This document shows positions 24,001 to 34,436 of a DNA stretch of 36,238 nucleotides, piece by piece. Where the stretch lies: contig JAPKCM010000041.1 of the NCBI GenBank assembly GCA_028822935.1, forward strand, positions 1-36,238, written 5' to 3'. The notes under the pieces are model-generated. The model had not been told where the DNA came from, made no database searches, and was given only the letters and a program-made list of their open reading frames with translations. This DNA is from Akkermansiaceae bacterium (GTDB taxonomy: Bacteria > Verrucomicrobiota > Verrucomicrobiia > Verrucomicrobiales > Akkermansiaceae). Position 1 is the first letter of the stretch. Each line of letters begins with the position of its first letter. A program made the translations under genes and the position numbers.

Positions 24001-24840
24001 GTGCGAGTGAGCGTTGGTGAACATGCTTTTTTAGGCTTTCTTCTACTTGGGATTGTGGTGGCTTTTTTTGGGCTGGCACTTCCGGGTTATAAGCTGATTC
24101 GGAAGATTTGGCCGGAAAGCGGGTGGAATTTAGGGGGGAGCGTGAGCACATCTGCGATCCGCGCCTTTGATCTGCTGGTTTTGGTGGGGCTGTGTGTGTT
24201 GTATTTTACGGTCTGGAAAGGATACCCGGACTCTGCAGAAAAAATTCTCGAAGCCACTCCGGAACTCTTTCTTTCCAGTTCGCTGAGTATGTTAGTCCTA
24301 GCGTCATTGGTTCCGCTTTTGCTTCTTTGGCGGGTGAATTTGGCTGAGTTTTTCGGTCTCCGCTGGCTGGAATGGCGCAAGGTGATTTGGATTGCGCCGG
24401 TTTTTGTGGTGGTGGTTTTCCTGCTGAACATTGTTTTGTATTTCACCGGTTGGCAGGAGTGGGTTCAAGTAAGGTTCGGAAGTGATGCCCAGGATACAGT
24501 GCAGCTTCTGACGAAAACGGATGACTGGTGGCTGATTGGGGCGGCGGCATTTTCAGCGGTAATTGCTGCGCCGATTGCGGAGGAGGTCATTTTTCGAGGC
24601 TATATTTATCCCGTGGTGAAGTGTTTTTCGGAGAAGTGGTTTGCTGCGCTTTTTTCAGGTTTTTTGTTTGGGGTGGTTCATTTCAATTTGATGAGCTTTC
24701 CCATTTTGGTTTTGATGGGGATCGGCTTTGTCATTCTTTATGAATGGACGGGATCGCTTTGGCCATCGATTGCTTGTCATTTGCTATTCAACGCCACCAC
24801 CATTTCGATCATTCTATTGGGTAGATTGGCGGGCGCATGA
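24001..24840 (+). CDS. CPBP family intramembrane metalloprotease (CAAX-like)
   Basis: A 279-residue membrane protein with about seven hydrophobic segments and the ABI/CPBP active-site motifs: EE at 194-195 in IAEEVIFRGYIY, H227 in FGVVHFN, and H260 with N264 in HLLFNATT. Members include prenyl-protein proteases and bacteriocin-immunity proteins; the substrate here is unknown. The start is GTG at 24001, with a GTG at 24007 as an alternative. The stop overlaps the thiL start (ATGA), so the two are probably translated together. Confidence 0.92.
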   Translation: MRVSVGEHAFLGFLLLGIVVAFFGLALPGYKLIRKIWPESGWNLGGSVSTSAIRAFDLLVLVGLCVLYFTVWKGYPDSAEKILEATPELFLSSSLSMLVLASLVPLLLLWRVNLAEFFGLRWLEWRKVIWIAPVFVVVVFLLNIVLYFTGWQEWVQVRFGSDAQDTVQLLTKTDDWWLIGAAAFSAVIAAPIAEEVIFRGYIYPVVKCFSEKWFAALFSGFLFGVVHFNLMSFPILVLMGIGFVILYEWTGSLWPSIACHLLFNATTISIILLGRLAGA

Positions 24841-25730
24841 AAACGGTGGGTGATTTAGGAGAGGATCCACTTATCGCGCAGCTTTGCGGTGGTCTGGCAG
24901 TCTCGGACGAAGTCCTCGTGGGCCCTGGAGATGACTGTGCGGTGATTCGAGACGGACGGACGTTAACCCTTTTGAAAACAGATGCAGTGGTTGAGGGAAT
25001 TCATTTTTTACCAAATGCCCCTGCCAAGAAAGTGGGCTGGAAAGCGGTGGCGCGGGTCCTCAGTGATTTCGCGGCGATGGGGGGAGAGCCTGGCGAGTTG
25101 CTGATCACGATCGCGCTTTCGAGGGAGACTCCATTACGTTGGGTGAAAGAACTTTATCGTGGAATGAGTCAATGCCTGGAGCTCCATGGCGGGGTGATCG
25201 TGGGGGGCGAGACGACCTCGCTTCCAGCGGGCGCGCCCACCATGATATCGGTCGCGGGGCGCGGGAAGGTGACGAAGCGGAGGCTCGTGACGCGGAGTGG
25301 CGGGAAGGCGGGAGATTCCGTGTTTGTCACGGGTCGTTTAGGGGGATCGATCAAGGGTAAGCATCTGAGCTTCACTCCGCGCCTTGAGGAGGTCGCGTGG
25401 CTGACGGAGAATTTTCGGCTGCGGACGATGATGGATCTCTCGGATGGCCTTGCGAAGGATCTTCCGCGACTGGCGAAGATGAGCGGATGTGGATTTCAAA
25501 TCGAGCGCGATCAGATCCCCCGATCTCCCGGGTCTACAATTGATGAGGCCCTTTCCGATGGCGAAGATTACGAACTCCTTTTTACGATTTCGGAACGGAG
25601 TGCGGATCGCCTTGAGAAAGAATGGAGCGAGCGCTTTCCTAAGTTGCCCCTGACGCGTATCGGATCACTGACTAAGGAGAAGAGTGATTCTCTGAGCGGC
25701 GGGTGGGACCATTTTACGAGTCCTTCTTGA
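24837..25730 (+). CDS. thiL: Thiamine-monophosphate kinase
   Basis: ThiL phosphorylates thiamine monophosphate to thiamine diphosphate with ATP. The product shows GPGDDCAVIRDG near the N-terminus, LLKTDAVVEGIHF, KAVARVLSDFAAMGGEP, GGETTSLPAG and MMDLSDGLAKDLPRL, all metal- and ATP-binding segments of the family. At 297 residues it is slightly shorter than the usual 320 or so but complete. It starts inside the CPBP stop codon. Its 3' end overlaps the convergent TraB-like gene by 17 bases. Confidence 0.95.
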   Translation: MKTVGDLGEDPLIAQLCGGLAVSDEVLVGPGDDCAVIRDGRTLTLLKTDAVVEGIHFLPNAPAKKVGWKAVARVLSDFAAMGGEPGELLITIALSRETPLRWVKELYRGMSQCLELHGGVIVGGETTSLPAGAPTMISVAGRGKVTKRRLVTRSGGKAGDSVFVTGRLGGSIKGKHLSFTPRLEEVAWLTENFRLRTMMDLSDGLAKDLPRLAKMSGCGFQIERDQIPRSPGSTIDEALSDGEDYELLFTISERSADRLEKEWSERFPKLPLTRIGSLTKEKSDSLSGGWDHFTSPS

Positions 25731-31723: not shown

Positions 31724-32200
31724 TCCTTTATTGCGGTCGACGGCTTCGCCACCGCTATATCCCGGACGCTGAAAATGATACGTCGTTCGGTGGGGCTGTT
31801 GACTTGCATGCCGAGGTAGCCCCGGTGCCAGCCGCAGGCCATGTAGTAGTCCAAAGCGGGTCCTCCACTCCGGTCATCTCACCGTCGAAAGCGGTGATCT
31901 CATTGCCTCGCTCGGTGGGATAGGCGAGATGGACCGAGGCGGCATTTCGACGTGGCTTGAGATTGAAGTGGGCTGTCTTGGCGATCGCTCCATCGAGGAG
32001 GAGCGCTTTGATGATGCCCATAGGTTTGGGTGAAGTGAGGCGGAACGATTGGTAACCGGTCTACTTGCTGATGCTTGTGTCAGAGACCTGGGCCCTCTGG
32101 GGTTGGGGTCGAGATAGGCGGGCGCTCCGGGAACTTCGATCGGAGCAGCCGAGAGGAAGGAGGTGAGAAAAACGGTGAGGAGGATTGAAAGCAGTTTCAT
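31711..32200 (-). pseudogene. DUF3472-family exported protein, decayed and truncated
   Basis: The start is a perfect signal peptide (MKLLSILLTVFLTSFLSAAP) at 32200. After about 35 codons the meaningful sequence moves to another frame, crosses a TAG at 32061-32063 and reads SFRLTSPKPMGIIKALLLDG and ASVHLAYPTERGNEI. It then shifts again to YMACGWHRGYLGMQVNSPTE followed by RRIIFSV, a DUF3472 signature. The C-terminal half is missing. Two frameshifts, a stop and a truncation make it a pseudogene. A hairpin (GCGGT...ACCGC, 31733-31755) sits at the break. Confidence 0.8.
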
Positions 32201-32250: not shown

Positions 32251-33420
32251 TCAGTGCTTCTCTGCTTCCCAGTAACCTTGTTCCCAGTGCATCCCTTGGG
32301 GTGGGATTTGATCTTCGGGTTTGGTGGCAGAAGTGAGAGAGAAGACATGGCCGAGAGGACTTTTCCCTGGTCGAGCGCCGCGAGTGAATTGCCCCTCACC
32401 CCAGTGCGAACCAAGAGTGAAGAGGTCAAAGCGTTGAAGATTGCCGTTCTTATCGAAAGAAATGGTGCCGGTGAGGGCGCCCTCATAACCCATTTTTCCG
32501 TCGCGGGAATTGATCAAAATGGTGCCCGTGACTTCTCCACTAGGTGTCAAAGTGAGGGTGCAGTTTTTGACTTCAGAGCGCTTCCAGGGTCTGGGCTCGC
32601 CACGGATGCTGTCGTTGAGATGGAATCGTGCCATTCGTTCCGTAAGTCGGTCAGGAAGATAGCCGCCAGATTTAGAGAGGGCGTGAAGTGCTGCCACCTC
32701 CTCTTTCTTGAGCCAAAGAAAATCAACGGCAGCGAGCGGCGTATTTCCGCCGATGACGGCAGCCTTCAGTTGACCATCTTTTCCTTCGAGTGCCCGGCTG
32801 TGGACCTTCACAACTGTTCCTCCTTTGGGGAACTCACGTGCATACTTGGCATCTTGTTTTCCTCGATCAGGAATAGTTGCGGTCTTTTCGGAGTCAGGAA
32901 GGGCTTCCCATTTTTTGAGGGCATCCCGCATCATCGCGAGACGCTTCTTCGGGTCACGGTTGTTATTGTAGCCGAGAAGCTTTCCTCCGGCGGTAAAGAC
33001 GTAGTGGCCCTGTCGGGTGCCGCCTTCGGTCCGTCGAGGTCCTTGGGCAGCGACGCTGCGGAAGAAGTGACCTTCGGCGTCCTGACGGCGGCGTTGATAC
33101 CAATCATTTGCGGCGACCGGGATGAACTCCTCACCTAGGAGCTTCTGAACCTTGGGCTTTGAAAACACCAACAACCTGTCGGTGACTCCGTTGTTTCAGA
33201 CACAGCCGAGCGGATGCCCGTCCATTTCCCAGAGGTAGATCGGCTTCTTCGCTTTAGCGGCCTCGCGCCGCGCTTCCCAGAGATCGGTGCGCCAGCCGAT
33301 CTGCAGCCATGCGGTTTCTTCTGCCTTAGGAAGAATCTCGGCGATGGCGGCCTTTTGCTCAGCAGACCATTGACCTAAAAGTGAACCTGCTCCGAGGAGG
33401 GAAATGAGAATTGCTTTCAT
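32251..33420 (-). CDS. Probable selenoprotein: exported thioredoxin-like protein, Cys-Val-Sec, TGA at 33196-33198
   Basis: Two frames joined by one in-frame TGA make a 389-residue protein. Residues 1-16 are a signal peptide (MKAILISLLGAGSLLG). Then comes WEARREAAKAKKPIYLWEMD, a typical thioredoxin-like lead-in, and GHPLGCV followed by the TGA as codon 75, so Cys73-Val-Sec75. After the TGA the same frame continues NNGVTDRLLVFSKPKVQKLL, FIPVAANDWYQRR, YVFTAGGKLLGYNNNRDP, and a C-terminal region ending QGYWEAEKH. The join is natural and the following bases form a SECIS-like hairpin, so the TGA is probably Sec rather than a mutation. It starts 2 bases after the stop of the LTxxQ-repeat gene. Alternatives: a nonsense mutation, or a short 74-residue product. 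Confidence 0.82.
33161..33198 (-). promoter_or_regulatory. SECIS-like hairpin after the in-frame TGA
   Basis: On the minus strand the TGA (33198-33196) is followed by AACAAC, then GGAG (33189-33186), a U, CACCGAC (33184-33178), loop AGGUU (33177-33173), GUUGGUG (33172-33166), a U and UUUC (33164-33161). The seven-base stem pairs completely with one G-U, and GGAG/UUUC extends it past a U-U mismatch. The loop starts 18 nt after the UGA. Established bacterial SECIS features are a hairpin just downstream of UGA with G early in the loop; the E. coli fdhF loop is AGGUCU with nearly the same spacing. Confidence 0.75.
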
Positions 33421-33422
33421 GA

Positions 33423-34436
33423 TTATTCTTCTACGGCCCCGGTGGTGGGGATTTCGATGTCAAGTTCCTGCTCGGTTTGGAAGCCGCCGAGAAATCCTCC
33501 GAGGATGCCGCCATTTTTCGACTCAAGGCTCTCACGATAGCGAGTGAGCTGATCTTTATCGAGGACGGGTTCGAGCGCTTCGACTTTCTCATCGATTCGC
33601 TTTTGTGAGCTTTCCTTCATCCTTGCCATGATGTCGTTCTGGTCGACATTTTCATTTCCTCCTTCGATCTGCTCTTCGATGATACTTCCAAGCCCAAGGC
33701 CTTCGATATCGAGTTCAATCCCGAGTCCTTCGGTCATCATGCTCATCATGGCGCCACCGGCGGAGCCCGACTTTTCTTGTTCTTCAGCCTGGTCGTAAAG
33801 AATGTCCATGACGGCGTCTTTTTGGTCGGATTTAAGATCGAGGAAGCTCAATTTTGCGAGGCTCTTGAGTGCCCGTGACTCGACGCGGTTGTCAAATTCC
33901 CGTCCTTGGAGAGCGGCGAGCTCCTCCTTCTGTTCGTCGGTGAGGAGAGGTTCGAGTGTTTCCTCGATTCCTGATCCACTCATCAGTTTGGCAATATCTC
34001 CTACGTTTTCCATTCCCTTACCCGACCGCATCATTTCTGCAAGCCCCTCTGTTTTCTTGCTCCACTGGGCGCGGAGTTCCTTTTCTTGCTCAGGAGTGAG
34101 GTTGAGCTCTTTCACAAGGCGGGCAATGCGCGCGTCGAACTTCTTCTCCTGCCGCTTCTTCATCATTTTTTCGAAGCCGGAGCTGGTGCCATCGATGACA
34201 GGAGTGGTTAGGGCGGGAGAGTCGCTTTCCTCGATAGAATCACGCTTCTTGACGATTGTTGCTCGGGTGGTGACCCGGGGTTCCTTTGGCGCGGTAGAAG
34301 AATCCGGCGCATTCACCTTAGAGGGAGGGGAAGGATCAGGGGACGCTGCGGTGCCTGGGTTATTTGGCTTAACGAACCATGCGGCGGCAAAGCCAAGGGC
34401 GATTCCAACGATGGCGACAAGGACGGTGTTTTTCAT
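33423..34436 (-). CDS. Membrane-anchored or exported helical protein with LTxxQ-like repeats
   Basis: The 337-residue product starts MKNTVLVAIVGIALGFAAAW, a signal anchor, followed by a Pro/Ser/Thr-rich linker to about residue 85. A helical part repeats the LTxxQ theme: LNLTPEQEKELRAQW, LLTDEQKEEL, LDLKSDQKDAVMDIL and VLDKDQLTRYRESL, as in Spy/CpxP-type periplasmic proteins. It ends in a Gly-rich and acidic tail. It precedes the Sec-containing gene with a 2-base gap, so the two are one operon. Function unknown; a chaperone-like or stress role is a guess. Confidence 0.8.
   Translation of the reverse strand: MKNTVLVAIVGIALGFAAAWFVKPNNPGTAASPDPSPPSKVNAPDSSTAPKEPRVTTRATIVKKRDSIEESDSPALTTPVIDGTSSGFEKMMKKRQEKKFDARIARLVKELNLTPEQEKELRAQWSKKTEGLAEMMRSGKGMENVGDIAKLMSGSGIEETLEPLLTDEQKEELAALQGREFDNRVESRALKSLAKLSFLDLKSDQKDAVMDILYDQAEEQEKSGSAGGAMMSMMTEGLGIELDIEGLGLGSIIEEQIEGGNENVDQNDIMARMKESSQKRIDEKVEALEPVLDKDQLTRYRESLESKNGGILGGFLGGFQTEQELDIEIPTTGAVEE

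Follow-up and report, generated by a model that had tools for sequence, protein, structure and literature searches.

A probable exported selenoprotein family of the Verrucomicrobiales with a thioredoxin-like domain and an upstream cysteine

The described selenoproteins closest to the gene considered here, which lies on the minus strand at positions 32251 to 33420 of contig JAPKCM010000041.1 of an Akkermansiaceae bacterium (the window, that is, the whole analysed stretch of 36,238 nucleotides), belong to four families. The VPGUxxT family thioredoxin-like (seleno)proteins (NF041382, NF041383) likewise have a thioredoxin-like first domain with selenocysteine (Sec), and by eye the same 12 residues separate their Sec from the S of a following (F/L)S-x-P motif. 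The Trx7/PDZ domain (seleno)proteins (NF041199) likewise combine a Thioredoxin_7-type domain with Sec, and the NEPxGxxU motif selenoprotein TsoC (NF045708) has a P-x-G-x-x-U arrangement that is also present in the HPLGCVU of the window protein. By motif, the nearest entry in Table 1 of a 2026 review (PMC13188914) is the thioredoxin-like selenoprotein Sec.1 (PF13192), which has CxU in a thioredoxin-like protein.

The gene can be set apart from each of these, at least by description. The VPGUxxT proteins keep the second Cys of the site (PGUAGC), unlike the window family, and Cys forms of them exist in the same order, the Verrucomicrobiales. With the two VPGUxxT models, ten proteins of the window family reach at most 18.6 bits (cut-off 275) and 15.2 bits (cut-off 350); the best E value is 0.0049 among 59 aligned members (alignment A3, 59 of 98 complete proteins, with the most divergent subgroups left out), and the similarity (hhalign 84.7%) covers the first domain, with none beyond it. 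Of the aligned VPGUxxT proteins of the order (L173-L182), L175 (G399:C93) has Sec and the other nine have Cys. The site of NF041199 is CxxU according to Table 1 of the review, as opposed to CxU in the window protein; its model does not match the window protein and matches three of the 59 members weakly (best E 0.017). TsoC is missing from the 11 NCBIfam families with matches (E up to 1) to the 59 members, and PF13192 (Thioredoxin_3) does not appear in their list of 25 Pfam families, which may end at that number. More generally, within Table 1 of PMC13188914 (119 families), no entry has both a Thioredoxin_7-type domain and CxU or UxxG. The string 'Verrucomicrob' is absent from the main texts of PMC9312934, PMC12013277, PMC5029168 and PMC2398784, and the papers examined on selenoproteins with Verrucomicrobia or Verrucomicrobiota, the order names and Planctomycetes (including PMC4807772) announce no such family, Haft and Tolstoy 2025 lying outside the scope of these searches. 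No selenoprotein study of this bacterial order was found in the literature searches.

An earlier note, made from the letters of the stretch, had proposed an exported thioredoxin-like protein of 389 residues in which an in-frame TGA encodes Sec in a Cys73-Val-Sec75 motif. Its coordinates, length and motif, and the absence of a frameshift, are right; the strand, which it left unstated, is minus. With TGA read as Sec, the minus-strand frame from 33420 to 32251 runs from ATG to a terminal TGA through 389 residues with one internal TGA and zero frameshifts, and the residues around Sec read GHPLGCV-U-NNGVTDRLLVF. Translation of the plus strand of this interval yields no such protein. The parts of the gene are as follows.

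32251 to 33420, minus strand: very probable selenoprotein gene of 389 codons, with TGA75 as Sec and the terminal TGA at 32251-32253 (from the frame and from 105 of 110 related loci with TGA at the aligned codon).
33367 to 33420, minus strand: probable signal peptide, approximately residues 1-18, MKAILISLLGAGSLLGQW (read by eye).
33196 to 33198, minus strand: the Sec75 codon TGA (from the frame; the aligned column is Sec in 59 of 59).
33202 to 33204, minus strand: codon of Cys73, which is likely to form a redox pair with Sec75 (64 of the 105 loci have a Cys at -2).
33166 to 33184, minus strand: hairpin of the type of a selenocysteine insertion sequence (SECIS), bases 15-33 counting the U of UGA as 1, with a covarying core of 17-21 with 27-31 and the loop AGGUU (from folding, covariation and SECIS rules).
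32881 to 33303, minus strand: thioredoxin-like domain, approximately residues 40-180, borders approximate (from profile similarity).
32254 to 32853, minus strand: unnamed conserved C-terminal domain, approximately residues 190-389, borders approximate (aligned across 59 relatives).

Conservation of the internal TGA is extensive. A single-protein search of 387 genomes of the phylum gave matches in 13, namely the protein itself, one full-length relative (G240, 32% identity) whose TGA, in GHPAGET-U-NNGV, occupies the same codon, and 11 weak first-domain matches; outside the order, matches in the phylum sample span the first domain only. A profile built from the window protein and the G240 relative matches 80 of 386 genomes of the order, and TGA stands at the aligned codon in 105 of the 110 related loci from the order, with TAA or TAG in none; no full-length Cys form was seen among these loci. 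A TGA was accepted if it fell within 30 residues of the expected column, and in a 95-protein alignment all TGAs occupy one column, an outcome eased by trimming the sequences to 45 residues before Sec. The five loci lacking a TGA near the Sec column are a C-terminal fragment (L138) and four weak first-domain matches (L144-L147, 15.8-24.8 bits). Relatives with TGA at the same codon reach down to 18% identity, and the Sec column is occupied in 59 of 59 aligned sequences; the stop is thus no recent point mutation, an outcome the earlier note had named as speaking against it. In addition, in 26 related pairs, third positions account for 75% of the substitutions ahead of the TGA, for 73% of those in the 60 codons that follow it and for 62% of those farther on.

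Presence of the gene goes together with that of selA. The 105 loci lie in 74 genomes (the 80 matching genomes minus five without a TGA-bearing match, G021, G027, G063, G082 and G619, and minus G458, which has the C-terminal part only). A selA match was found in 72 of the 74, above cut-off in 68 and below it in four, with two lacking any; three of the four (G422, G469, G541) have it in pieces at 92-245 bits. Among the other 312 genomes of the order sample, selA is above cut-off in 47. Fisher's test, which ignores kinship, gives p values of 6e-37 for the 74 genomes and 1e-43 for the 75-genome count that includes G458, of which 73 have selA.

The window protein by itself has zero Pfam or NCBIfam matches at E up to 1. 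Among the 59 aligned relatives, Pfam at E up to 1 gives Thioredoxin_7 in 31 (best 4.8e-5) and DUF255 in 10 (best 0.0014), and hhalign reports 95.7% against thioredoxin-like proteins of a genus of the same bacterial family (g2, which we take to be Akkermansia), over the first domain only. These g2 proteins were tried as Cys forms of the family and dropped, as the match is confined to the first domain. By sequence, the PDB yields 3ira_A ('Conserved protein', presumably of the DUF255 type; E 0.38) and a kinase (E 1.9). The first domain is very likely thioredoxin-like on this profile evidence. The designation in the earlier note stands insofar as it describes the weak profile similarity of the relatives (31 of 59 and the hhalign result). 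No NCBIfam match better than E 0.0012 exists among 66 members scanned, and the C-terminal domain has no Pfam or NCBIfam match near cut-off in the 59 relatives.

At the active site, a Cys lies within four residues upstream of Sec in 102 of the 105 loci: at -2 in 64, at -1 in 22 (one of which also has it at -4), at -4 alone in 15 and at -3 in one. L126 has no upstream Cys in the bases read. Position +3 from Sec is Gly in 90, Ala in 13, Cys in one (L139) and unread in one, so the CxxC/UxxC active site of the thioredoxin-like superfamily is absent from the 103 of 105 loci with Gly or Ala there. W43, G68, Sec75, N77, G78, R82, Q137 and G138 are invariant in 59 of 59 sequences, and by eye the 12 residues from Sec to the S of FSKP match the distance counted from the first Cys of the g2 proteins and from the Sec of VPGUxxT. 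The Cys-x-Sec motif of the earlier note thus holds for the window protein and for one clade (64 of 105 loci), and CxU was dropped as a motif defining the whole family. In 17 of the 63 genes of this CxU clade (three of them truncated or broken), the -2 Cys is the sole Cys counted from 75 residues before Sec. This, together with the Cys positions, makes Sec75 and Cys73 a likely pair, and we consider it reasonably probable that they act as one.

Sec75 and Cys73 could instead bind or transfer a metal or metalloid rather than turn over as a redox pair. In favor of such a role are the variation of the Cys position among clades, its absence from L019 and L139, and the CU motifs that Table 1 of PMC13188914 gives for three proteins from organometallic pathways, SaoL, SaoC and HgcA. 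However, the profile similarity is to thioredoxin-like domains, and the genes with a sole Cys at -2 have just what a redox pair needs, so that we regard metal binding or transfer as rather unlikely.

A FastTree analysis of 95 proteins places the CxU proteins in one group (57 of them with one other protein) with support 0.991, and the ET (14), NCU-Q (7) and RCU-V (7) proteins form clades with support 1.0, with the remaining CU proteins ungrouped. The divergent groups match the first profile only weakly and were accordingly counted as a wider superfamily. These TGA-bearing thioredoxin-like groups of the order, in which a Cys adjoins Sec, are perhaps further selenoprotein families; their members are L127, L129, L130, L132-L135 and L140, then L117-L119, L122, L123, L125 and L137, and finally L121, L124, L128, L136 and L141-L143, with motifs such as DDKRCU-VFAGAARE and GNCU-QNGVKTRQ. 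No full-length member with a residue other than Sec at the site occurs among the loci read in the order, and just four of the 264 genomes of the order with neither a selA match nor a TGA-bearing member yielded matches, all of them weak and limited to the first domain. By eye, L147 (ELSC-ANSR) resembles a Cys counterpart of the outlying L141, L142 and L189 (EFCU-ANG), and the wider superfamily may accordingly have Cys forms. One tentative interpretation, to which we give somewhat less than even weight, is that the family is Sec-obligate: the full-length proteins would never replace Sec by Cys, the second Cys of the site would have become Gly or Ala, and the partner Cys would lie at -1, -2 or -4 depending on the clade.

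Downstream of the UGA, the window sequence folds with bases 15-22 paired to 26-33, the 48-mer having an energy of -12.1 kcal/mol. Folding energy was dropped as evidence for the hairpin since UGA windows fall close to the median when ranked against other codons of these genes; we relied instead on covariation and on published SECIS limits. The sequence after the UGA aligns without gaps in 59 distinct sequences of the 63 in the CxU clade (alignment A2), with G23 of the loop invariant, and 98.3% of cells show pairing between bases 17-21 and 27-31. At 17-31 there are 27 UA, 25 CG, 4 UG, 2 GU and 1 other pair, and at 18-30 there are 37 CG, 15 GC, 3 GU, 3 UG and 1 other. Double changes in the stem number 48 cells as against 14.0 (sd 7.1) in shuffles, and the covariation score is 0.523 as against 0.254 (sd 0.021) when shuffled, a control that ignores relatedness, and at most 0.111 when slid, a control that corrects for relatedness but favors a consensus-derived structure. 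The published model of the bacterial SECIS requires a loop of 3-9 nucleotides, a stem of 4-16 base pairs, a G at one of the first two positions of the loop, a distance of 16-37 nucleotides from the UGA and a minimum free energy of at most -7.5 kcal/mol (PMC13188914). The window hairpin falls within all these limits, with the loop AGGUU 18 nucleotides after the UGA, and 93 of 104 relatives conform at the UGA to a simple version of these rules, as against 345 of 1030 control codons. In the ET clade (that of G240; alignment A6, 15 distinct of 16 sequences), a different hairpin pairs bases 30-34 with 39-43 and covaries less strongly (0.185 as against 0.106, sd 0.028). Judged by covariation and the SECIS rules, the hairpin that the earlier note had seen is more than chance, ordinary as its energy is.

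These observations bear on whether the TGA might be a true stop, which would leave a 74-residue exported peptide and, after it, either a decaying tail or a gene with a start of its own. Table 11 has TGA as a stop, it ends 42 of these genes, and the energy of the hairpin is ordinary. On the other hand, the 101 ends in view are divided between TGA (42), TAA (34) and TAG (25), so that a termination codon at position 75 would hardly be TGA only, as it is in the 105 loci. The coding-type substitution on both sides, the strong selA link and the covarying hairpin further oppose a stop, which we consider very improbable.

The source genome (G000; 4.59 Mb in 156 contigs, completeness 96.1, with the window as contig C65) has the complete set of Sec genes, and all four that the earlier note had suggested looking for (selA, selB, selC and selD) were found. 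The best Rfam match for tRNA-Sec scores 53.9 bits against a cut-off of 47, and ARAGORN calls a tRNA-Sec with the anticodon TCA (UCA) at that place; weaker Rfam matches are uninformative because all 14 control genomes give some. SelA scores 485.6 bits, SelB 278.3 bits (cut-off 242.25) within a 651-residue frame extending past the matched part, and SelD (L170, G000:C53:6429-7358) 386.5 bits. This selD has an in-frame TGA of its own in SCGGUASK and thus serves as an internal control for the use of Sec by this genome. A further frame of the genome (L188, G000:C136:42262-44621) has an in-frame TGA in GMG-U-FWG with 92 residues before and 199 after, and is presumably a Sec form of methionine sulfoxide reductase A. 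In the window itself, positions 24837-25730 (plus strand) give a weak match to the SelD model, at 43.9 bits below the cut-off of 125, and could, we presume, encode a ThiL-type kinase. That the TGA is read as another residue through a reassigned code or a suppressor tRNA, for which only the frame being open across it speaks, is the least credible possibility, given that 42 of 101 of these genes terminate in TGA, that the tRNA at the best Rfam match is a tRNA-Sec and that gene-bearing genomes have selA. With the sel genes, the conserved TGA and the covarying hairpin all in its support, the insertion of Sec at UGA75 is almost certain as far as such comparisons can tell.

It is accordingly highly likely, though from sequence comparison, that the gene encodes an exported two-domain selenoprotein; in its thioredoxin-like domain, Sec75 and Cys73 would form a redox site. 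Export is very probable in its own right: the signal peptide suspected earlier was seen by eye at residues 1-18, and a hydrophobic 12-mer is present upstream in 74 of 95 complete relatives and in 52 of 57 in the CxU clade. Hairpin-bound SelB would deliver Sec-tRNA to UGA75, translation would continue to 389 residues, and the signal peptide would direct the protein across the inner membrane. There, Sec75 would attack its substrate and Cys73 would resolve the Se-S intermediate, replacing the second Cys of the classical CxxC. Most likely, the protein serves the cell envelope as a thiol/selenol oxidoreductase or as a peroxidase; any one named substrate would be an improbable guess.

Several observations weigh against this interpretation. 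Two single-sequence structure models have a mean pLDDT of 41, too poor for a fold test, and the best structural comparison of the first (Z 5.1, residues 201-365) is with unrelated beta barrels and was treated as noise. In hhalign, Sec75 falls on the second Cys of CxxC and not on the first, while the 12-residue spacing to FSKP would put it on the first. In L019 and L139, the eight residues upstream of Sec contain no Cys, and L139 has the classical UxxC instead. The hairpin energy is ordinary, with z -1.30 and 24 of 200 shuffles folding at least equally well, and the median energy rank is 0.44 against other codons of the same genes (48-nucleotide windows, 104 relatives). Finally, two gene-bearing genomes, G389 (83% complete) and G722 (72% complete), lack a selA match, and the selA match of G559 has 18.9 bits, which is hardly evidence.

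In the window, a 337-residue frame (33423-34436, minus strand) ends two bases before the start of the selenoprotein gene and possibly shares its transcript; it has a weak LTXXQ match (14.1 bits, cut-off 24.3). Just downstream (31731-32200, minus strand), an apparent single exported protein lies in pieces across different frames and looks broken; the pieces presumably resemble DUF3472 proteins. A 294-codon open frame antisense to the gene (32254-33138, plus strand) is probably spurious, and Rfam has zero matches in the window. Across the family, a comparison of neighborhoods from raw open frames (about 1.5 kb per side only for L019 and L040-L067) gave a largest neighboring cluster, sulfatase-like in our reading, at 10 of 105 places, on both sides and both strands.

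By all sequence tests, then, this is a real selenoprotein gene whose active site is unusual, and it very probably adds a selenoprotein family that is unnamed in the curated libraries searched. Annotation would split each gene of the family in two at the TGA. Since no Cys forms occur among the full-length members read, methods that search for Cys/TGA pairs would be expected to miss the family; were the tentative Sec-obligate interpretation true, they would indeed miss it, and selenoproteins of this order would perhaps be badly undercounted. The natural series of partner-Cys positions offers a direct test of selenol resolution in a thioredoxin-like site, and, if the family is Sec-obligate, its chemistry may truly require selenium.
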